Shown piece after piece: positions 26,601 to 63,981 of a stretch of DNA of 64,000 bases. Under the pieces are notes generated by a model, which was given only the letters and a program-made list of their open reading frames with translations, did not search any database and was not told the origin of the DNA. Within the stretch, counting starts at the first letter, position 1, and the number at the start of each line of letters is the position of its first letter. The position numbers and the translations under genes are program-made. Source of the stretch: Branchiostoma floridae (taxonomy: Eukaryota; Chordata; Leptocardii; Amphioxiformes; Branchiostomatidae); assembly GCF_000003815.2 (NCBI RefSeq), contig NC_049996.1, forward strand, positions 10,936,838 to 11,000,837, read 5' to 3'.

Positions 26601-29600
26601 TTGCTGTGCAAGATTCCTCTCTGATTTTTGCTCACCAACGATGCTGTGTTATGTCTCTAAACAAGCTACTGTTGTAGCAAACGTTAGACAAATATAGTTA
26701 CCAGTTTCACCTTGGCACACAGAGTCTACCTGACAGGAGAACAATGGCAGAGATAATGGGATGCCCCCTTCTTGAACCCTATCAGGCACCGCCGGCAGGA
26801 CCGGGCCTGAATCACACGGTTCGCTGCGTGGCCTTTCTCGGGCTTTCATGGCTTTGAATGACTGACAAATCATCATATCTGCTGAGTGAATAGCCGACAT
26901 AGCGCCGCTTCATTTTCCGTTACATTAACAACAGCCACTGGTCACTGATGTTATCAGTCAGGATGTTATTCATTACTCAAACTTAGCTACAAACGTAACA
27001 AAGAGGAGACCATCTGAACCAGGTGCCATGTAGTATGCATATGCCAATACATGGCTGATCAAAATGTTATGAACAATGCGAATACTCTTGAGGAAAGATG
27101 AAACTAGAAATTCTAAAAAAACTTTAGAAGACGGAACGAAGCAATATATATATGTCCAATAATTTTACCTAATTGACGCGCTCAGTTTGCCATCGTACGA
27201 CGATCGTTAGACAAATAAGACCTATCTGTTTTCGGGGGGTTATGTTTGTGATTTGTTTTCCAAAGGTCTTGTGACACGAACACATTTGACTTTGATGTGG
27301 TAGAGTCTTTAAGCTGACTCTGATAGTACCGATAACTGACATATAATGCTCTAAGCCAGCAATTGTTCGTACCAACTAACCAAGACGGATGAATTTCGTC
27401 CAATATAAGTACCTACTAGTAATTGATGTCCTCAATTTTTTCATTGTACATCGATCGCACGACCATCGTTCGACGAATGTGACTGGTCTCCTACTGAGAA
27501 TCTTAATTATTTGCTACAGGCTTCTGAATTAGCGCTGTAGCTCTGTGTTGGTCACCAAGGTTATTCCTCGGTAAACATATATTGTCCTTGGCCTTGTGGT
27601 AACTACTTATTGCTCTTCTGGTGAAATTAACTTGGTCCGGAACAAGACATTGTAATTCTGTGCTCTGATTAGCCACTAGAGGAACAGAAGCATTGGCTTT
27701 GGTTACACAAATTACCAGGTGAGGTCAAGAGTGAAATGATGTTAGGAAAACCACATCCTCTGCGGTATCAATGCGCGCACTGTCCTCGTGATCAGCAGCA
27801 CCTATTTGTTTGTTTCAAGTCAATTCAATTGCAACCGCAGGATCAAGAGCTCAATCGGATTAGAAATTGTGTTTCTAACGTTTGGCATCCACCTGTATCG
27901 ATGTGATCATCACACATATTGGAATATATGAAGAAGGATTATGATATAATTGTGTAAATAGTGGTTTGCCTTCGTCAATGCAATACTCTTTTTAACTCCA
28001 GTCATTGATGTCCTAGTTGGTGTTCTACTGGATGTGATGATTTGAACATCATTCAAACACGTCGTTCCTCAATACTAAAAGAGACCTGAAGACAGCGTTG
28101 TCTATCTACCAGTGAAAACATCATCGACGTTCAGATAGACGCTACACTGCTGCTAGCCTGTCGCCCAATTGTCTGAGCTGGTCGTAGACACAAAATTTGT
28201 CATTGAGCACGGTGACATTCGTCTTACTCTTTTTGTCGATACGACAACATTTTTCCGTCACAAGACATCCGAATTTTGTACGACGCGTCCACAATGCATT
28301 GTCTCAAGATCGAAAATGTCTTTAATCTGCCGTCGTTACGTAAACCTATCTTACGTAGTTCCAACAATTGACCGGGTCTTCACTATAGAAATGCCCTGCC
28401 TACTAATTTTTCTGTTAATTGTTTCCTTAATGTTTATACCTACTTTCATTTTATATTTCCAACTTTTAGTATAAGAAATATATATGTATATATAATTAGA
28501 GAGAAGCATAATCTTGCAGTGTGGCAATACTAGCCGGCCCAGGTGCATGGGCAAATTCCTCTCCGCTTACGTACAACTCAGGTGGTACGGAGAGCCACGC
28601 AGAGCGCACCGCGGACAATTATCCCTCCCCGTCCCCTGACAGTACCGCCGCCCAGAACACCGTAATCACCCGCTAATTATACAGAAGCAGTTAATGAGTA
28701 AGTATGGCATTAATGACAGGGGACTCATTCTGCGCCATGCCTTAGGAGCTGTGCTGAAGTCATAGCAAGCGGTGAGATAAGCACGTAGTCTCGGAGTAAT
28801 TACACCCCAGATTACACCTCTGCTCCCCGACATTACCACTAATCACGCAACGTGGGGACAATAGGCACGGGATTCTTCAGTACAGGGTAGGAATACGCGT
28901 ACAGAATCTGGTTAACAACATCTTCGAAAAGTTTGCCGTTCGTCGTTATCATGATGCGGATGCTATTGCCTAATCACCAGAACTTAAGTAATTTTAGTGG
29001 CCGAAAAAGTAGTATACATCGGTCAAATAAGGTGAATTATTTGCGGAGGCAGCTAGCCAGTGGATGTTCTTGGGCAAATGAATCATTCTGATTGGCCAAT
29101 TTATGTTCTTTTTAGCCAACAGTTAAGTGTAGTACAGACTACATCAAAGTGGCAACTTTATGGTTTGAATTAATTGCCGTGAAATTGCCTCGACGGTTTG
29201 GCCTGTTACAAAGTTGGTTCGATCATCTCCAAAGATTGCGCCGAGGGCGAGCGGGCATCATTACCGCACATTGTCCCGTGAACCGGGGTGACTTCTTCCA
29301 GGCTGTTGGTTGCGCGTCTTTGTTGTGGGGAGGGGGGCTGTGAAGGCGGTGATTATGATGATGTACGGTGATATACCACGCAGGTGAGAACAAACGGTGC
29401 TGTTCACCACAATTAGAGGAGTGGAAATTGAGGAGGAACAGGCCGCACAGGTGTACGGCCGGAGGGCTAGGGGGCGGGGAGAGATACGCAGGCGCGGGCG
29501 GCAAGCAGCTTCTGAAGGCTTGGGAACAAACTTATCACACAAACATGCACCCTCTAATTTTGCTGTACTCAGAAGAGGAGCAGAAACATTACCCCACTGA

Positions 29601-32600
29601 TATGTGCCCCAGGGAGAGTGTAGAAGAAGAACAGGATTCTGTGGCATCGTCTTTTCAATGCGGCTTCTGAAGGCATGGGAACAAACTCTTCAAACAAACA
29701 TCCATGCACCCTCTAATTTTGCTGCACGTAGAAGAGGAGCAGAAACATTATCCCACTGATATGTGCCCCGTGATAGTGCCTTACATAATATAGAAGAAGA
29801 GCAGGCTTCTAACGTTCTGTAGCATCGTCTTTTCAAAGAACCGTGATGTCATCAAAGAAAGGCATTCTGAAGTGTGATCGCTCATTATCTATGTAATAAT
29901 TGCATGTTTGAGGTATACTGACAACTGCCAGTTGCATTTCGTCATACCAGTCGTTCTTCTTGGAACACTTAGGAGAAGGCAATGTTTGAGGAGTTTCCAT
30001 TATGAATCTCTCAACAGTAATTAGGGTTCTAATGACGTGGGTACATGGTGACAGTAGCCCAGCTTCGCGTCCGAGTCCGGACACGACTGGAAATGGGAGT
30101 CACAATGTCCTTTTCATGGGGTTTCATGCTATATATCATCTGTGTGCGTATAAGAACCCCACACACTTATCGAGTATTTGGTACATGACCCGGCGTGCTA
30201 GTGCTTGGCTAAATACGCTAGCCGTAGCGACGACGCATTACCTACTACCAAGGAGGTTTAACCTCCTTGCTACTACCTTCTTTAGAGAGTCACACAGCAT
30301 GTTTCACCTCAACGGAAAATAACTGTTTGCTTTACGGTACCAAGATAATGGAATTATTACTTATTTCAGATCAATTAAGAGCACTAAACAAACAAAAAAC
30401 ACAAGGGATGGACTTTCAAGTTTCTAGCTGCAGGAGCTAACGAAGAGCTACTGGAGACTAGACGATTGTTGATACATTCTTTATGGGGACAACAATGGAA
30501 TGTCATGTCTATGTCAGGTAGTGTTCTTGTAGACATGTCCATCAACATCGTGGCCTTTATACTGGTGGATGACCTTTTCTGCTGGCCGAGTCAGGGAATC
30601 CCTAAACAATGACAGATGTCTGGAAGTTTGTTTCTGTTTATGTACATGTATGGGTTAACGACTGGGGGACCATTGAAAGAGAGAGAGAGAGAGAGAGAGG
30701 AGGCGGGAATGGTGGTCTTCAAAATAGGAGACAACGAATGATCCATCCATGGCAATGGCTTACAGATTACATATCTATTACCGTTACAACGGTTGTATGA
30801 AGTAATGTCATCAGAGCATTGTTCCAGACCGATTCTACGTTATCATGCATAATCCTAGCGTTTTCGACTATTCAGTTTTCTTGAAAGTCTGGATGCCGGT
30901 AGTTGATTTACTAAGAACCCTATGCTACTTACAGTCCTTCCACTAGTCAGGTGTCGGGGAGGCCCCAATAAGCCCCTGGAATCAAGAACCATGTAACAAA
31001 GGTTAATCTAACCCGACCGTGAGTGGATAAAGCCTGTCTCCTAACCGCTCCCTTCCACAGTAGTTCCTGACATGTGTTTATTACATTTTGACGACAGGCG
31101 CGTTGATGGCTGACTGAACATATTACCGGCACAAAAGAATTCCAACTTACTGTCTATTTCCCCTGTCAGATACACATTCCATCAGATTCTTCGCCAAAGG
31201 TTGCACTTTGAGGATCTTAAAAACGGTGTGATTTTATGGAATCTCCTATTCATTGGCGAAAATGTTTTTGATAGCCCAAATAGTACAAGATTAGCACTAT
31301 AGGTGTAATAAGCTAGAGGGGTTATTGAGTTAGAAATAGGATAGACTTTCGTTAGCCTGATTAAATCTGGCTTATAGCAGTTACAGCCCTGGACAGCAGA
31401 GTTTGGGTTACACAGACTAGACTTTCGTATGGCCGGTATTTTCGTCCAAAAGCAGTACTCAGGCAACTGGATATGATTTTGGAATTTTCATTTGACGTAT
31501 AGTACATATTGTACATACTGTGCACACATGTGTTTTATGCCTGCGATCTAACACGATCATACACAAGTTTCAGTGCTTTCTTTCGTGTATGTAGAAGCTT
31601 CTTCCTGTAAGAAAATATTCCCCCTCCATGATGAGACAGGTTTCCTCAGGTGAAACAACAGGTATGACGGCGGTCCACCCCACACCTGGCGAGAAATTGC
31701 GGCTGAAAGCGAGCTTGTTTGTTGCCACCTGGTCAGCCCCCCTGAAAGCCCGTCCCGTTTCACGCGTTCTTGAGCCGCCGATATTCGCTGGATCTGAAAG
31801 CTTTCTGGCTCCGGTCTTCTCTTTATTTCCCGGGCTTTGCACCCACAATGGATGGGCCGTTTGCGTGAGGAGACTTTTGACATCTTATACCTACCTTGTC
31901 GTTGACCCAGGGGTGATATGAGTGGTGTTTACAGACATACTGTAGGTCTAAAGTCCTGCCAACAAGACGCACTACTGCGCTGTTTGCTAACGTTCGCTTC
32001 TATGAATTATTCAACTGATCCTTGACATATCACAATCGGAGACGGCGGCAAGTATGCCAAATATGTGTTTCTTTGTGAGTTTAAGAAATGAATGCGACTG
32101 GGAATCCTTTACGCCCATCTAGACACGCCCATGTCCAATTACCTTCTCGTCATTCAAGATCTAGACCAACAGCACTGCGCACCTGTAAAGGTCGGTGGCA
32201 CGTGTAAATAGTAACTGTTTAGTGTGTTAAACAGGCAGGCTGACAATGTGGAGCTACTTAGGAAGCCATCAGCATTAAACCGCATATGCAGTGGCTCGGA
32301 ACCTGTGTCAACATCGCAGCGGTTCAGACGGTTGGGTTGACCAATCATGTACTGAGTTCATCTACGCATGACGGAATTCGTTCGTTCGTTCAGACGTTTG
32401 TAGTACATGTACAGTAGCTAATGGTACATTGTAGTGGTGTCTGTAGCTATATTTCAAAAGGAAGAGTTTGCCAGATCTTCCCCTTTATTTTAACGCGCAT
32501 CTCCTCGAACATGGGACCCCCATTTTACGTCCCTTAGGAGTTTAGAAAGACATGTGCAGCCCCAACCGAGCCCCAAGCATACATAGCAAGAACTGAGACC

Positions 32601-56541: not shown

Positions 56542-56666
56542 ATGGCGGACACAACAGAACTTCGGACCGCCCACCGGTTCGATGTGGACCGTCTTCATGC
56601 CCATCTCCTCAAATACGTGCCAGGTTTTCCTCAGCAAAACGAACAACTGGTCGTCAAGCAGTTCAG
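56542..56666 (+). CDS. ACAD11: ACAD11-like exon 1
   Basis: Encodes MADTTELRTAHRFDVDRLHA and on to KQF, exit phase 2. Donor GTACAA. Confidence 0.85.
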
Positions 56667-59600
56667 GTACAAATTTCAGAACTCTACTCTCTTGTGTTGC
56701 GGAGAAACCTGAGCTAGAAACCCGACAACATTATCAAACTACACATAGGCGACCTCTTACAGAAGGATGGAAAACTGCAGAAATGAAAGTTTATTTTATT
56801 GTAACGTTATACCAAGTGTCTGTACGCTATATATTTTATACATTGAGGGGACTGTCTGTTGTCTTTTTTGGTTTAACACTTCAGCTGTTGTCTTGTATCC
56901 GACAGTGGAGGGACAGATCATAATTTATCACACTGCACTCTGTAAGGGTCAGGTGAACTGTGGGTGACCTTTGTACAGAGAGGCACCTGCTTTGATAAGT
57001 AGAAACATATCAAAGGTGACCAAATAACCGTTACCTATTTAACGTGGTTAAGTTTCAAAGACTTCTAGGTTTGTACATAAAATAGTTGCAAACTAGCCTC
57101 AGACTTCTGTTGGCTCTACCAAACGTCAACGATTGATGAAAAGTGAATAATAATTTGTGACAATAGCTTTTCTGATGCTGCAAATAACCCTTGTCTAATT
57201 TATCAATTCTGCTGGCCAAAGTCTCTGGGGGTAGAATATTTTCTCTTTAACAAAAACTACTTAGATAATCTTAGATTAGCTATATTTCACAGAATCTTTG
57301 CTACAATTTAATTGTTGTTATTCACTTTTAATACTTCAGCTTTGGCCAGTCCAATCCAACATTCTACCTGAAGAAGGGACAGACTGATTATGTCATGCGG
57401 AAGAAACCACCGGGACGCCTCCTTAAAGGGGCACACATGGTACAGTCCATTTTATTGCATTCTTTTTCATCACATGAAAATAGGCAGTTAATGAGGTAAC
57501 ACAATAAAAGGCCAAGACTATTAAACGTTCCTGTCAATAAGAATTTTTTCACTATTACCAAGATAGTCTTGTAAATAAGAATCTCCGACCTGCCAAATGG
57601 AAGTTGACTAATTTGCCTCCTGGGCCATTGCACACTTAACACCAAATCATTGAATAGATGTATACTGTTCACAGTTTTCTTGTGCTAGGCCGTAAGACAT
57701 ATATAGCTATGTATCCCAACCAACATTCACGAAAACCAATCTCTCTCTCTCTTGTCCGTTCGTCAGCATAGACGATGACAAAAAAAAAGAAACCCATCAC
57801 ATTGTCCTGTCAGTGTGTTGAGTTGTAGCTTATGCTATGTACCCCTACCAACATTCATGAAAACAAAATGTACCTACTAGTAGATCTACATATATCTGCA
57901 CAGCTACGTTCTTGATGTTCATTGATGTTCATTGGTGATCGTTATCTGACATTTGCCTGTACCGTCATGTTAAGGTTGAGCGAGAGTACAGGATCATTGC
58001 AGCCCTCCACTCGGTGGGTTTCCCTGTGCCCTGTCCCATTCTCTTCTGTTCGGACACTAACGTCATCGGCACAGAGTTCTACATCATGGAGCATGTCAAG
58101 GTAAGTCCATAGAACAAACAAACAAACAAATAAGCAACAAGCAGAAAATGTTATCAACACAGTCAGAACTAAAATACCTGTACTTTGTAGATAAAACACA
58201 GACCTGTACTATTGTACAAGTAAAAATAGGTGTATGTTAATAAAAAATAGCTTTGAAAATATTGTTTCAGCCTATACATGTATATTGTCGGTAGTAATTT
58301 ACTAGCAGTGTACAGAACTTCAGACGTGTGTTTGATCTTAAAATAAACATTTTCATGTTCATTTTTCTGTTCTCACATATGCCCTATGGTCTTTCTTGGC
58401 CCATCTTCATTGTGAGATGCTTCCATCTCTCTTTGATAGGGAAGAGTTTTCCGAGACGTGTCGTTAAATGAGTTACCTGCGGAAGAGAGGACAGCAGTGT
58501 ACAACGCCATGGCAGAGACACTGGCTCAGCTACACTCTGTAGACTGGAGAAAACTCAAACTGCACGACTTTGGCAAGGAGGGAAACTACTGCAAGAGACA
58601 GGTAATAAGACTGTACTGTTAGCAAACCAGGGTTGTCCCCACAAATCCGACATCTGGTGTGACAGTTTTATTTTTCTCAATTTTAGACGATTTAGATCAA
58701 TTCTGTCATTTTGGATATGATAGTTTTCACAAAGCTATTACCTACCATTGTAGTAAGGTATTCATTCCACGTGGGGTTCAGTGAGGAAAGTGCCTTTCCC
58801 AAGATGATATGTTGATAGATTGATTAGGACGGTATTTTGACTAACCCTAATACCTTTTCCCTCATGACCTTAATGAAAAGTGGCCTGCAAGCCAATTTGA
58901 GGTTTCTCATGAATAAACAAAGGTTCAAACAAACAAACACACAAACATTTGGCCCTGGGAATCAAACCCGTGACTTTTCGATCTCCTTATTGATATTGAT
59001 GACACAATGTTCTGCATTTGTCAAAAGCAACCATTGATTTTCTTTTTCTTTTTGTACCCTCTAGCTATCCACATGGACCAGACAGTACCAGGCTGCAGCT
59101 ACTGGTGACATCCCGGCCATGAACCGGCTCATCCAGTGGTTAAACCAGAACCTTCCTGCTGAGGACACCAAAACCACCATCGTACACGGTGACTACAAAC
59201 TGGACAACGTCATCTTCCACCCCACTCAGGTACGTCTTTCTGCAGTAAGGAGGCAAATAAATATGTTCATGTGTTGATGGAGGTTAATAATGGTATGAAA
59301 CAGTAGAGGCAGGCAAGAAGAAAAAGTCTCCTGGCTACCAGAAATTGAACCCGGGCTAAAAACTGTTTGACCAAAAGTCTGTTCCCTTTGAAATGGTCAG
59401 TTGGTGGTGCTTGAACCCCACTGGTATTTGTAGATGATATCACTCTCCAGGTAAACAATATTTGTCTCAGATTTTTTATTCAGTCTTTGACAAACTCACT
59501 AAAGACTGTCCAAAGAAGCAAAAAACTATAAGGCACTCAATAGAAACAGTGTAAGTTACAAATTCACAAAGAAATACTGTTTCCAGTTATGCAGTATCTT

Positions 59601-62600
59601 TAGCAACATCTTTATGTATTGACATATTTTCCTATGATTAAAAAAGTTTAAAAAGTTTTTGTTTGTAAAATTTTGTGTTTTCTGCAGCCCCGAGTGATTG
59701 CTGTTCTAGACTGGGAGTTGTGCACCCTGGGTGACCCCCTGACAGACCTGGCCTACCTCTGTCAACCTTACAACTGGCCTGAAGATCTGCCCCAACTCAA
59801 CATGGCACAACCCTCAGGAAGTGGTATGCAAGTTTCCCTTTGTTCTTACTTAGATCACTCATATTCGATGTATTTATTCCACACTTACACTTACAGACAG
59901 AAAGAAAATTACTCTCCTCTTATTAACATAGCAAAACCCACAAATAACAGAAAAGGGGGGATCATACGTCTTCTATCGTCTCAGAAAAAGAAGTCAAACC
60001 CAATAAGTTACAGTTTGGTGTTGAACCTTAGACTAGAGTAGTCTCTTAATATACTGTTTGTTTGTCTGTCATTTTTTGTCACTTGCAATTACAATGTAAC
60101 CCCTCAGGCAAGAACTTGCAGTAAACAATTAATTTTTTTGAGAATGAGAATTAATCACATGTCCATAATTTTGAGTAAATATTTACTGGTGGCACTACTT
60201 AGGCGTTGACTTAGTAAACATTAGCGCCCCTTGTTCTACTTTAGTGGACCGTATAACTGAGGTAGCAGGCATTCCAAGCCAGGACCAGTTTGTACAGAGG
60301 TACTGCACCGCTAGGGGGCTGCACTCCCGACCCGACAACTGGGAGTTCTACCTGGCTCTGTCCTTCTTCAAGGGAGCCTCCATCTGCCAGGTAAGGTTGT
60401 TTAGGTCACACTAGCCCCCTGCTGTAGTGATTGCACAAAGTTGTGTGGCCCAGGGCTTCTGAAATGGAGATGGACACCGCCCTATGCACCACCTGGTGCG
60501 GGAAGGACTTAAACTAACTTAACACAAGGCCACAATTAGCATTTTACGTTTATGGAGGACATACCAATGTTGTCTTTCTTCACAGCTGATATTCTCTGTT
60601 CTCCGACTTTGATATGTCAGCCTCCAATGAGACAATATCAAATGATCACCATTTAGTGTATGGTCAGGGTACCCAAACTACTGCAAAAAAGACAATTTTC
60701 CTGTCAGAAATCTTAACAAATCTAGGCAACTGCTTGGAGACTAGGAGTCCCAAACTTGCTCCTGTATTGACTGTAATCTTGAAGCAGATGTAGGGTTTTA
60801 CATGTGTTTGTTAGGCTTTTTATTCATCTACCGAGTGGTCGACTTTTATTTGAAAGATGGTCAAATACAGACCAATAAAAAGAGGAATGAAAAGCGTAAG
60901 GAACAATGAATGCAACACTTAGCCCTACATCTGGGAAGATGCGTGACGGGTGCCTGTTCCACCCACCAGGGTGTGTATGCCCGAGCCTTACAGGGAAACG
61001 CCAGCTCCGATATGGCACATGCTGTGGGTGTGCTTGTTGAACCTCGGGCTAGGACAGGACTTGAGATAGCTTTAAGGTTAGTCATACTGTACATGTACGA
61101 AATGCCGAAGTTCATTTCCTTGTTCTCAGGATCTTTAAGTGTGATGCAAAACATATTTTCAGTCCCTGTACTTAAATCTTCCAAGGAAGATATAAGTTCT
61201 GAGGAAAAAAAGGCAGACGTTTTTCTTAGATTACATTTTTTTTCTCTGCATTTTCCTTCTTGTCATTCAACATCAAAAATCTGAGAGGGAAGGAAATGAA
61301 TTAGTTTGGCATACATGCACAACATGGTTTGTTTTACTTCAATGCTGCTTTGAAGCTACATGAACCATCTAAAATTGCACAGTTCTGTTTAGTGTATGCT
61401 GTTTCTTGATTTTGTCAAAAAAACTTTGAAGGAGCTTTGAGCTTGAAACAAACTAAGTGTGCATTTATAATCATATCAATGATACGCAAATGTACAAGGG
61501 CACCTTTCAGTGTACATAATGATGTGTGGTAGTGGTACTGAATCAAGAACCAAGAGGCCACGTCTAGCGAAATAATAGACGTTAAACGAGGACAACAACA
61601 ACAACAACAATCAAGTAAAAAAAATCATAACAGTTTGAGAGGACCGAAATTGGGTGTTAAGTTTTCTAGGCAAGGTATTATCTGTTCAAAAAGAGTTCTT
61701 TTCATAATCATTGGCAAAATCGATTTTTACAAACAACTCAAACCATGCATTCATATAACTTGCCCCTTAAAGTTTAAAAGCAAGTTGCAGTTCATAGTTA
61801 GACAGAAAGGTGGCGCTTGTGTACCAGCACTACCACTGGTCAAAGGTTAAAAGTTTACCGTGTCAAAGGTCAATGCCCTAGCTGCCACTGCACTCTTGCT
61901 GTCCAAAGTCTGCAAACTCTGTGTGAAACACTTGTGTAAGGACAGCAGCTTCAGGTTAGTATTTCTGACTTTCTGTGCAAACCAGAGGCAACAGTTTGCT
62001 GTGCTGAGAGTCTCAGATACTTCTGGGTTTATGCTGACATTTTGGACCTTACACAATGGTCATCTCGTAACAAGGTCACTTCAAGGTGTGACACTGAGGC
62101 CACTCTGAGGTTACAGTAATACATAATATATATTACTGTATCTACTGTGATTCAAACTTTGGAAAGATGTTTGCAAGCCATTATGAAGGTTTCCATTGCG
62201 TATACATAGCCAGGAATGGTTAATTAAGGAGGTGGATTCACATATGTTCTAGAAATCAGGCTATATATCTCTGTCAACCGTGGCATGTCTGCCAGGTCCC
62301 ACCACTTGTTGCTGCGTCTTTAGATAAATTTCCAGGTAAACCTAGAGATTGCTCCATAGTTCCCTAATACATTCAACAAATTTAAGGCAACTAAGGAAGG
62401 ATAGTTAATCTAACATTAGTTTTAAGTACAATATAATGATACAACTTTTATTAGTTTTACCCAAGTTTTAGCTACAAATGTAGATTGTACATCATGTCAG
62501 TATGGTGTTACATAGACAGATCCCTGCAGTTGGAAATGAATCTGCTAGAGGGAGCAAGATTTTGCAATTTTTTCTTAGTCTAAGGCCTATCCACAAACTG

Positions 62601-63981
62601 GAAAACACTCATAAGATTGGTAAAACCTTTTGAATCAGCATTACCACCTACAGAAGCTGTTGAACATTGAACAAACTTGTATCCTCCATACATCATACAA
62701 AGCCCATACACTGAAAGGTGCCCTCTGTGCTGATTTTTTACTGCCTGTTTCAAGCCCCCCTCTCCCCCATATTTTCCAGGGGGTGTATAAGAGAGCTTTG
62801 CAGGGCAATGCTAGTGCAGCACAGGCAGAAATATTTGGACTTATAGTGGAACCATTGGCTGGTGCAGGAGTGAAAATAATAGAACGGTGAGGACAACAAT
62901 GGACTTTTGAATGGATTTTGGTGGCCTTTTTTTTCTTTTTCAGAAAGACCAAAAACTACAGTTATTTAAAGACAAGGCAAGAAGGGCTCTTTGGAAATAT
63001 TGAGCTGAAAATACAGGAAACTGCAAAAAATAGGTTTTGCAAAATGTAATTAAAGAAAGGACAGATTCTGATTGGAAAAAAAATTGCTTGAAGTTTGAAC
63101 TAACAGTTACTTTAATAGTTGACCTTCATTTTGTGGTATAAATGTCTCGCATATACTCTTTCCTCTTGGCCCCAATCCTTACTGGTCTACCATTATATGT
63201 AATGTTGATCTAAGATAAATGATAATATTAGCAATATATGAAGCAATAATTGAAGCAAAGATAGTAGGAAAGGGATCTATCTTACCTCAGGCTGTCTCTA
63301 TATCAATGTTGTTTGTGTTGCACCCATCAGAAAGATGTCAGCTCAGACCGGCTCTCTGCTCCAGCCTTCACCTAAAGGTCAGGAGCTGTTAAACAGGGTC
63401 AGGGCTTTCCTGGAGCAACATGTGGCACCAGCATTTAAGGTATGTGCAGCTCTGTATCAATCAATGTAATGTTGTGCCCATGTATACAGATAGCAGTGGA
63501 ATTGTGGTAGCATTGTAATAGATTTACTCACAGTGACTTCCAAATGCACATAGTTCTAGTCCAACCTGTACAAGTGACCACCTCTACATAAGGTCCACCT
63601 GGCCAATATCACCACTTTTTGGACAGATCCCTTTGTTGATTCTTCCCATGGACACAAGTATTAAGAATCTTGTCTTAAGTAACCTGTCCACATAGACCAT
63701 GAGAGGTGTTCTTGTGTAGGTTTTTTCATTTTTAAATGTAATTTCTATCCCTTTCCTTGTCTCTTGTTCTTACTCTCCCCTTCTCTCTTACTCTCATCCG
63801 TCACTCTCTCATCTCTCATCCTCCCGCATGCACTCTCTCTCCCTTTCTATTTTTCTGTGTAATACAGAGCAAAAAAAACAACTGAAAACTTACCATTGTG
63901 TGCTTTGTTTTGTGGCAGACTTATGAAGAACAAGTTGCCAAGAACAGATGGGGTGCCCCTCCCATTGTGGATGAAATAAGG
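56542..63981 (+). CDS. ACAD11: ACAD11-like acyl-CoA dehydrogenase (3'-partial)
   Basis: ACAD10/11-family protein: an N-terminal aminoglycoside-phosphotransferase (APH)-like kinase domain followed by an acyl-CoA dehydrogenase. Recent work assigns the vertebrate enzymes to 4-hydroxyacid catabolism through 4-phospho-acyl-CoA. Exons: 56542-56666, 57340-57439, 57975-58100, 58440-58601, 59065-59229, 59688-59823, 60245-60390, then either 60970-61076 or 62780-62886, then 63331-63439 and 63919-63981. Seen: FGQSNPTFYLKKG, VMRKKPPG, the catalytic loop HGDYKLDN and the metal-binding VLDWELCTLGDPLTDLAY. No HAD-like domain precedes, so the layout is ACAD11-like and not ACAD10-like. The start ATG at 56542 (CAACATGGCG) is favoured over an in-frame ATG at 56422. 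The dehydrogenase core lies beyond the window. Confidence 0.92.
56667..57339 (+). other. ACAD11-like introns, small
   Basis: Intron 1. Nothing recognised inside. Intron 2 (57440-57974) holds two diverged direct copies of GCTATGTA(T/C)CCC...CCAACATTCA (57704 and 57833). Confidence 0.6.
57340..57439 (+). CDS. ACAD11: ACAD11-like exon 2
   Basis: Encodes FGQSNPTFYLKKGQTDYVMR and KKPPGRLLKGAHM, the nucleotide-binding N-lobe. Acceptor ACTTCAG, donor GTACAG. Confidence 0.95.
57975..58100 (+). CDS. ACAD11: ACAD11-like exon 3
   Basis: Encodes VEREYRIIAALHSVGFPVPC and SDTNVIGTEFYIMEHVK. 126 bp, phase 0. Acceptor TTAAG is short of pyrimidines but protein and phase fit. Donor GTAAGT. Confidence 0.94.
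58440..58601 (+). CDS. ACAD11: ACAD11-like exon 4
   Basis: Encodes GRVFRDVSLNELPAEERTAV, then MAETLAQLHSVDWRKLKLHD and GNYCKRQ. 162 bp, phase 0. Donor GTAATA. Confidence 0.95.
58755..58990 (-). mobile_element. tRNA-derived SINE in ACAD11-like intron 4
   Basis: On the minus strand: B-box-like ACGGGTTTGATTCCCAGGGC, then a body ending CTTGGGAAAGGCACTTTCC. The tail motif AAAGGCACTT also occurs in the NSF-intron SINE at 4535-4665. Confidence 0.55.
59065..59229 (+). CDS. ACAD11: ACAD11-like exon 5, kinase catalytic loop
   Basis: Encodes LSTWTRQYQAAATGDIPAMN and TIVHGDYKLDNVIFHPTQ, with the HGD...N motif of APH-type kinases. Acceptor CCTCTAG, donor GTACGT. Confidence 0.97.
59330..59435 (-). mobile_element. 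SINE-like repeat in ACAD11-like intron 5
   Basis: Contains GAAATTGAACCCGGGC and GGTGCTTGAACCCCACTGG, the same pair of blocks as at 10795-10920. Confidence 0.5.
59688..59823 (+). CDS. ACAD11: ACAD11-like exon 6
   Basis: Encodes PRVIAVLDWELCTLGDPLTD and LAYLCQPYNWPEDLPQ. The DWE Asp is the metal ligand equivalent to kinase DFG. Acceptor TTCTGCAG, donor GTATGC. Confidence 0.96.
60245..60390 (+). CDS. ACAD11: ACAD11-like exon 7
   Basis: Encodes DRITEVAGIPSQDQFVQRYC and DNWEFYLALSFFKGASICQ. Acceptor ACTTTAG, donor GTAAGG, exit phase 0. Confidence 0.95.
60970..61076 (+). CDS. ACAD11: ACAD11-like exon 8a (mutually exclusive with 8b)
   Basis: Encodes GVYARALQGNASSDMAHAVG and VLVEPRARTGLEIALR. 107 bp, entry phase 0, exit phase 2. 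Acceptor CCACCAG, donor GTTAGT. About 20 of 36 residues are identical to exon 8b. It forms the last helices of the APH-like domain. Confidence 0.88.
61077..62779 (+). other. Intron between alternative exons 8a and 8b
   Basis: 1.7 kb with a (CAA)n run near 61597-61611. No exon seen. Competing intronic sequences that enforce the exclusive choice could lie here, but none is evident by eye. Confidence 0.6.
62780..62886 (+). CDS. ACAD11: ACAD11-like exon 8b (mutually exclusive with 8a)
   Basis: Encodes GVYKRALQGNASAAQAEIFG and LIVEPLAGAGVKIIER. 107 bp with the same phases as 8a. Acceptor TTTTCCAG, donor GTGAGG. Its second half (IVEPLAGAG) is closer to human ACAD11 (IVQPLAETG) than 8a is. Splicing 8a to 8b would shift the frame and meet a TAG within 8b. 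Confidence 0.9.
63331..63439 (+). CDS. ACAD11: ACAD11-like exon 9, linker to dehydrogenase
   Basis: Encodes KMSAQTGSLLQPSPKGQELL and RVRAFLEQHVAPAFK. Entry phase 2 fits either 8a or 8b. Acceptor ACCCATCAG, donor GTATGT. Confidence 0.92.
63919..63981 (+). CDS. ACAD11: ACAD11-like exon 10, start of ACAD N-terminal domain
   Basis: Encodes TYEEQVAKNRWGAPPIVDEI and R. 63 bp, phase 0. Acceptor GTGGCAG, donor GTAAGT. Matches the RW-x-PP-ID region ahead of the dehydrogenase core. Confidence 0.9.

Follow-up and report, generated by a model that had tools for sequence, protein, structure and literature searches.

The window, the whole 64,000-nucleotide stretch of Branchiostoma floridae DNA that was analysed, contains near its end the first part of an ACAD11 gene on the plus strand. 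With 19 kb added past the window end, this gene was modelled from an ATG at 56542 to a stop at 73181; the model encodes 766 residues, and every intron is bounded by GT-AG. Coordinates above 64000 carry on the window numbering (window coordinate = 64000 + L009 position). The gene consists of the following parts:

56542..60390, plus strand: ACAD11 exons 1-7, from the start ATG to the end of exon 7 (GT-AG exon model), encoding most of the APH-like kinase domain
60970..61076, plus strand: exon 8a, 107 bp, phase 0 in and 2 out, residues 321-356
61077..62779, plus strand: intron between 8a and 8b, 1,703 nt, which exceeds the length for steric exclusion
62780..62886, plus strand: exon 8b, 107 bp, phase 0 in and 2 out, residues 321-356
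63331..63439, plus strand: exon 9, common to both forms, 3' of the 8a/8b pair, encoding the linker to the dehydrogenase domain
63919..63981, plus strand: exon 10, the final exon within the window, a common exon preceding the second pair
64268-64409 (L009:268-409), plus strand: exon 11a, 142 bp, phase 0 in and 1 out
L009:410-449, plus strand: intron between 11a and 11b, 40 nt
64450-64591 (L009:450-591), plus strand: exon 11b, 142 bp, phase 0 in and 1 out
L009:1259-9181, plus strand: exons 12-17, past the window end

An APH-like kinase and an acyl-CoA dehydrogenase are joined in a single open frame, which is the ACAD11 type of fusion. A Pfam search with a 551-residue string (exons 1-13, with 8b and 11b) recovered the APH (1.2e-52), Acyl-CoA_dh_N (1.2e-12) and Acyl-CoA_dh_M (1.3e-11) domains. 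Among solved chains, the best matches to exons 10-17 (with 11a) were human and mouse ACAD11 (541-553 bits). Both the kinase motif HGDYKLDN and the dehydrogenase motif GRLGPGRIHHCMR are present in the model, which also keeps the catalytic and phosphate-binding residues D220, N225, R626, H634 and R637 of mouse ACAD11. The model ends in Ala-Lys-Met, which may fit the type-1 peroxisomal targeting consensus. The ACAD10 and ACAD11 proteins phosphorylate 4-hydroxyacyl-CoAs and convert the product to 2-enoyl-CoAs for beta-oxidation, a function that has been assigned recently (PMC12440821).

Two pairs of homologous exons and their conservation

The earlier note on the window had described 8a and 8b as two exons of exactly 107 bp with identical phases (0 in, 2 out), 1.7 kb apart. 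The lengths, the GT-AG sites, the phases and the spacing (an intervening intron of 1,703 nt) were all borne out at the same positions. The approximate count of 20 identities over 36 residues proved to be exact (20/36), and 61 of the 107 nucleotides are identical. As that note had also maintained, the reading frame breaks when both exons are used (with a stop within 8b) as well as when both are skipped; in the latter case, the analysis located a stop in exon 9. Shuffling the residues of one copy 100,000 times yielded at most 12 matches compared to the 20 observed. Identity between 8a and 8b by codon position amounts to 19/36, 29/36 and 13/35, a pattern that is indicative of protein-level constraint with worn-out silent sites. 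The Nei-Gojobori silent distance is not computable, that is, saturated, for this pair as well as for the pair described next; together with the low third-position match, this saturation argues that 8a and 8b are neither alleles nor the products of a recent duplication.

A second homologous pair, 11a and 11b, begins 268 bases beyond the window end in the same gene, with 34 of the 47 residues and 93 of the 142 nucleotides identical between the two exons. Joining 11a to 11b, skipping both or retaining the intervening intron leads to stops, and all four combinations of 8a or 8b with 11a or 11b are open over 766 residues. Each of the two pairs shows the features by which mutually exclusive exons are recognized, namely neighbouring homologous exons of equal length with the same phases and GT-AG sites.

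The intron between 11a and 11b is only 40 nt long, whereas the remaining 17 introns of the gene span 286-3,362 nt, and the A residues in it that resemble branch points lie 18 and 26 nt downstream of the 5' splice site. A donor and a branch point less than approximately 50 nt apart are quoted as being too close for simultaneous assembly of both spliceosomal complexes (PMC7969005). Since no branch point in the 40-nt intron reaches this distance, splicing of 11a to 11b should be sterically blocked, judging by intron length. The 11a acceptor is poor: its AG-free zone measures 8 nt, less than that of any other among the 18 acceptors, and it has a pyrimidine fraction of 0.45 (tied with exon 13 for the lowest), and 11a accordingly could be rarely used; the 11a donor is middling, with six of nine consensus matches (compared to four for exon 2 and five for exon 6).

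Conservation of the four exons was assessed in two ways. In simulations of neutral decay (3,000 per pair), one copy was mutated in the absence of selection until the observed DNA identity was reached. For neither pair did any of these runs retain the observed amino-acid identity. An open frame by itself persisted in 31% of the runs for exon 8 and in 19% for exon 11, and therefore proves little. The second approach employed column profiles from bacteria, namely the best 80 of 454 relatives of the dehydrogenase half, which were collected with seed patterns that all lie outside exon 11 and ranked with a query that carried 11a. The kinase columns come from the 26 of these 80 loci that possess an alignable kinase gene, 22-23 of which cover most of exon 8. 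Against these profiles, 8a and 8b scored 47.2-54.6 bits, each about 7 bits higher when serving as the alignment anchor, and 11a and 11b scored 104.0-107.0 bits; 2,000 shuffles per case yielded maxima of 15.7 bits for exon 8 and -19.5 bits for exon 11. This equal fit indicates that no member of either pair has decayed relative to the family, and all four exons appear to be conserved. A dead exon as the main reading was rejected given the neutral decay and the profile fit.

In 26 of the 80 bacterial loci (L021-L062, mostly Marinobacter and Planococcus, as well as L074 and L094), a kinase relative is present as a separate gene within about 2 kb of the dehydrogenase gene, located on the opposite strand in L094. 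These separate kinase and dehydrogenase genes represent a two-gene form of the animal fusion.

Protein segments that the swaps would exchange

By alignment, exon 8 corresponds to residues 321-356 and exon 11 to approximately residues 425-471 of mouse ACAD11, where the numbering of the mouse paper equals the chain index plus one, as fixed by R626, R631, H634 and R637. The mouse residues R86, R176, D220, N225, R626, H634, R637 and D753, as named and numbered in section 7 of PMC12440821, all map outside both cassettes, which suggests that the enzyme would be tuned, and not switched off, by the swaps. At exon 8, the mouse chain aligns to one version, and the solved human chain does not include the kinase part.

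The earlier placement of exon 8 in the C-terminal kinase helices near the linker agrees with an AlphaFold model (mean pLDDT 86) that was built for a bacterial kinase relative of 354 aa from an alignment containing 22 of the 26 kinases. The top solved match of this model is 3dxp, and mouse ACAD11 (8v3v) ranks sixth. The exon 8 segment corresponds to model residues 315-350, which cover the end of a long helix (298-321), the loop that follows and the final helix (330-350). Exon 8 is thus predicted to encode the end of the penultimate kinase helix together with the last helix, and swapping it would alter the last kinase helices ahead of the linker.

For exon 11, which extends as far as the beginning of dehydrogenase helix E, a sharper functional prediction is possible. 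In human ACAD11, Pro463 unwinds helix E and thereby creates a large acyl pocket, and ChsE4 contains a second proline two residues past the first and has a slightly larger cavity (PMC11153573). Human Pro463 was placed at column 452 of the ungapped 11a/11b alignment, on the assumption that mouse and human numbering are offset by one residue. At this column, 11a has Pro and 11b has Ser; at column 453 they have Glu and Met, and at column 454 Ala and Pro, respectively. Of the 80 bacterial relatives, 76 have Pro and four (L044, L051, L063 and L094) have Ser at column 452, all 80 have Glu at column 453, and 35 have Pro at column 454. Columns 452-453 are Pro-Asp in mouse and human and Pro-Glu in the ACAD10-like amphioxus paralogue (see below). 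By these bacterial counts, Pro454 of 11b is ordinary, Ser452 is rare but tolerated, and Met453 is absent from these relatives. Thus, 11a probably forms the standard pocket, and 11b might form a distinct but plausible one. Judging from the alignment to a published structure, exchanging the two would alter the beginning of the pocket-shaping helix E and might thereby affect substrate choice, although the change from Pro to Ser alone may be mild considering the four relatives with Ser in this column.

Proposed mutually exclusive use and its alternatives

In the interpretation that we consider quite probable, ACAD11 contains two tandem-duplicated, mutually exclusive cassettes that allow four possible full-length enzymes, with swaps that tune rather than disable the protein. 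Each mRNA would include one exon of the pair 8a/8b, for the kinase half, and one of the pair 11a/11b, for the dehydrogenase half. Most likely, both cassettes tune a 4-hydroxyacyl-CoA kinase/dehydrogenase. The mutually exclusive reading that had originally been proposed for 8a and 8b stands in part: on sequence grounds it appears to be the best reading of this pair, thanks to the equal fit of both exons to the bacterial profile and to the second pair in the same gene, and the use of the exons in RNA is extrapolated from these features.

Mutually exclusive splicing is known to result, among other causes, from short introns, from the decay of products that contain both exons, and from RNA structures that compete with each other (PMC6071210). 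In pair 11, the 40-nt intron would bar the joining of 11a to 11b, and any escape would break the frame. The 1,703-nt spacing of pair 8 permits double inclusion, so exclusivity must come from regulated choice combined with frame breakage; here, regulators of splice-site choice, the broken frame and the decay of wrong products presumably act together. A scan of the exon 8 introns for docking/selector pairing yielded one low-complexity purine/pyrimidine match of 17 nt with G-U pairs between introns 8 and 9, compared to a maximum of 16 in 12 shuffles, and the other two exon 8 intron pairs were within the shuffle range; the scan gave no convincing docking/selector RNA structure for exon 8. No convincing motif was detected in a scan around exon 8 for Rbfox, PTB, Nova, CELF and ESRP sites, with motifs counted without a control.

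It is rather unlikely that both pairs are spliced in a mutually exclusive manner but that the two versions of each are interchangeable and functionally neutral. Such neutrality would be in line with the equal fit of both versions to the family profile, with Ser at the helix-E proline column in four of the 80 bacterial relatives and with Pro two columns on, as in 11b, in 35 of them. Interchangeable copies, however, are expected to be lost or converted, and 8a and 8b, with 20/36 identical residues, are nearly as divergent from each other as each is from three of the four bacterial kinase rows (16-18/36, with 13/36 in the remaining row). Moreover, 11b has Met where all 80 bacterial relatives have Glu and mouse and human have Asp.

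We would put little weight on the extension of the two-cassette interpretation according to which the cassettes are chosen together by coordinated double splicing, so that matched pockets of kinase and dehydrogenase would be swapped and different 4-hydroxyacyl-CoA enzymes would result, one handling, for instance, straight long chains and another bulky or sterol-like ones. Should this be the case, one gene would provide a variety for which mammals use two genes, ACAD10 and ACAD11.

It seems improbable that only one exon of each pair is normally used and the other is a conserved poison or emergency exon, the joint inclusion of which causes decay and lowers output. Double inclusion does bring an early stop at both places, and the weak 11a acceptor would fit such a role. 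A poison exon requires no protein conservation, yet every copy fits the family profile far above the shuffles, and neutral decay would have erased the amino-acid identity.

Tandem-duplicated mutually exclusive exons are well known, and the layout proposed for ACAD11 is unusual in having one cassette per catalytic half, with exclusivity apparently achieved by different means in the two. The nearest metabolic precedent is the pair of exons 4a/4b of vertebrate OGDH, likewise a metabolic dehydrogenase with properties switched by a tandem-duplicated exon pair; in that case, however, a single pair, demonstrated on RNA, controls the calcium response, whereas the ACAD11 pairs are read from DNA. The FGFR2 exons IIIb and IIIc are alternative exons whose double inclusion brings stops and decay, and they have been studied on RNA, unlike exon 8 of ACAD11, for which no regulator was found. 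The likeness of FGFR2 to exon 8 lies in these stop codons and decay upon double inclusion (cited so in PMC6071210). The nearest kinase precedent is ketohexokinase, in which the choice between exons 3A and 3C of a small-molecule kinase changes substrate affinity (PMC6464065), albeit with one pair and a known tissue pattern. Two mutually exclusive sets in one gene, as in ACAD11, are present in Caenorhabditis elegans unc-32 (exons 4a-4c and 7a-7b; PMC3585155), which, in contrast, encodes a V-ATPase subunit, has one set of three exons, and has known regulators. The mammalian ACAD11 and ACAD10 share the kinase-dehydrogenase fusion with the amphioxus gene, and in mammals chain-length and organelle roles are divided between the two genes (PMC12440821, PMC11342911). 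The solved mouse and human ACAD11 chains contain one version wherever they are covered, whereas the amphioxus gene could add variety by splicing. No ACAD11 exon pair was found in print in the open-licence PMC literature, and two ACAD10/11 papers do not contain 'splice' in their text.

A gene with two natural versions of the terminal kinase helices and of the pocket segment, of which one has the cavity-opening proline and the other lacks it, represents a ready-made experiment on the basis of the ACAD10/ACAD11 substrate range. If confirmed, a two-cassette enzyme of lipid breakdown would join the metabolic enzymes that are tuned by mutually exclusive exons.

Further copies, the paralogue and the age of the duplications

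A scan for duplicates among 2,300 open reading frame pieces in 83 kb (tblastn, E <= 1e-4, same strand, less than 10 kb apart) returned 16 rows, which comprise the two ACAD11 pairs on both strands and repeats near 1.7/6.4, 15.2, 29.6, 65.1 and 68 kb; among these other repeats, the exon structure was checked for the 65-kb one. No further copies of exon 8 or 11 were detected by protein similarity in the 83-kb gene region. A genome search with the exon 7-9 stretch matched seven places, namely five in ACAD11 and the C129 fragment, one in a paralogue on C11 and a weak one on C9 (E 2.9).

The paralogue (C11:8507100-8536800, minus strand; L020, L018 and L019) contains a single copy of each segment in 29.7 kb. 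It keeps the helix-E proline, carries HAD-like segments upstream (assigned by visual inspection) and resembles ACAD10. The exon that matches exon 11 apparently begins at the same intron position, and the exon 7/8 boundary is not an intron in this gene.

The C129 fragment is a 561-bp orphan contig (C129:1-561; L014) that is 86% identical over 300 columns to intron 8b-9 and exon 9, with both exon pairs outside it, and is probably a leftover of the other, very divergent haplotype. The B. floridae assembly initially assembled two highly divergent haplotypes apart (PMC7269912), and this fragment of the ACAD11 locus is itself divergent, but it is highly improbable that either pair contains a dead duplicate or a copy created artificially by the assembly or by haplotype divergence, considering that all four exons are intact and that 46 of the 107 nucleotides differ between 8a and 8b and 49 of the 142 between 11a and 11b, far above the approximately 14% (gaps included) of the fragment. 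A haplotype or assembly duplication was rejected on the strength of this divergence. The near-identical flank repeats that would signal an allelic misjoin were not seen around exon 11, nor were any listed near exon 8 by a search too coarse to show even the exons.

The trees were built from short rows copied by hand (10 for exon 11 and eight for exon 8), including a few bacterial strings picked by eye and with insert columns dropped, and are too short to date the duplications. The best exon 11 topology joins 11a with the mammals, and the other two topologies were kept (AU 0.084 each). Accordingly, the tree leans, non-significantly, towards an exon 11 duplication that would be older than the vertebrate split, with 11b lost in vertebrates. 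The two amphioxus exons, however, share an extra residue that neither mouse, human nor the paralogue possesses and that is also missing from the bacterial rows included; this residue groups 11a with 11b and argues against the topology with mammals. For exon 8, no topology was resolved.

A 118-bp tandem repeat in three copies (L009:983-1319; 64983-65319) duplicates the acceptor and the first part of exon 12. Starting at the two upstream acceptors, the frame runs into a stop after 22 and 19 residues, and visual inspection revealed no donor resembling that of exon 12, so that the use of these acceptors would truncate the protein. The repeat at exon 12 is thus no exon pair. The repeat may be haplotype-specific or a splicing trap. 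Two further local duplications were noted, one of approximately 190 bp in tandem within ACAD11 intron 14 (L009:3854-4223), and one at 29502-29769, with 84% protein-level identity over 25 residues and copies about 160 bp apart.
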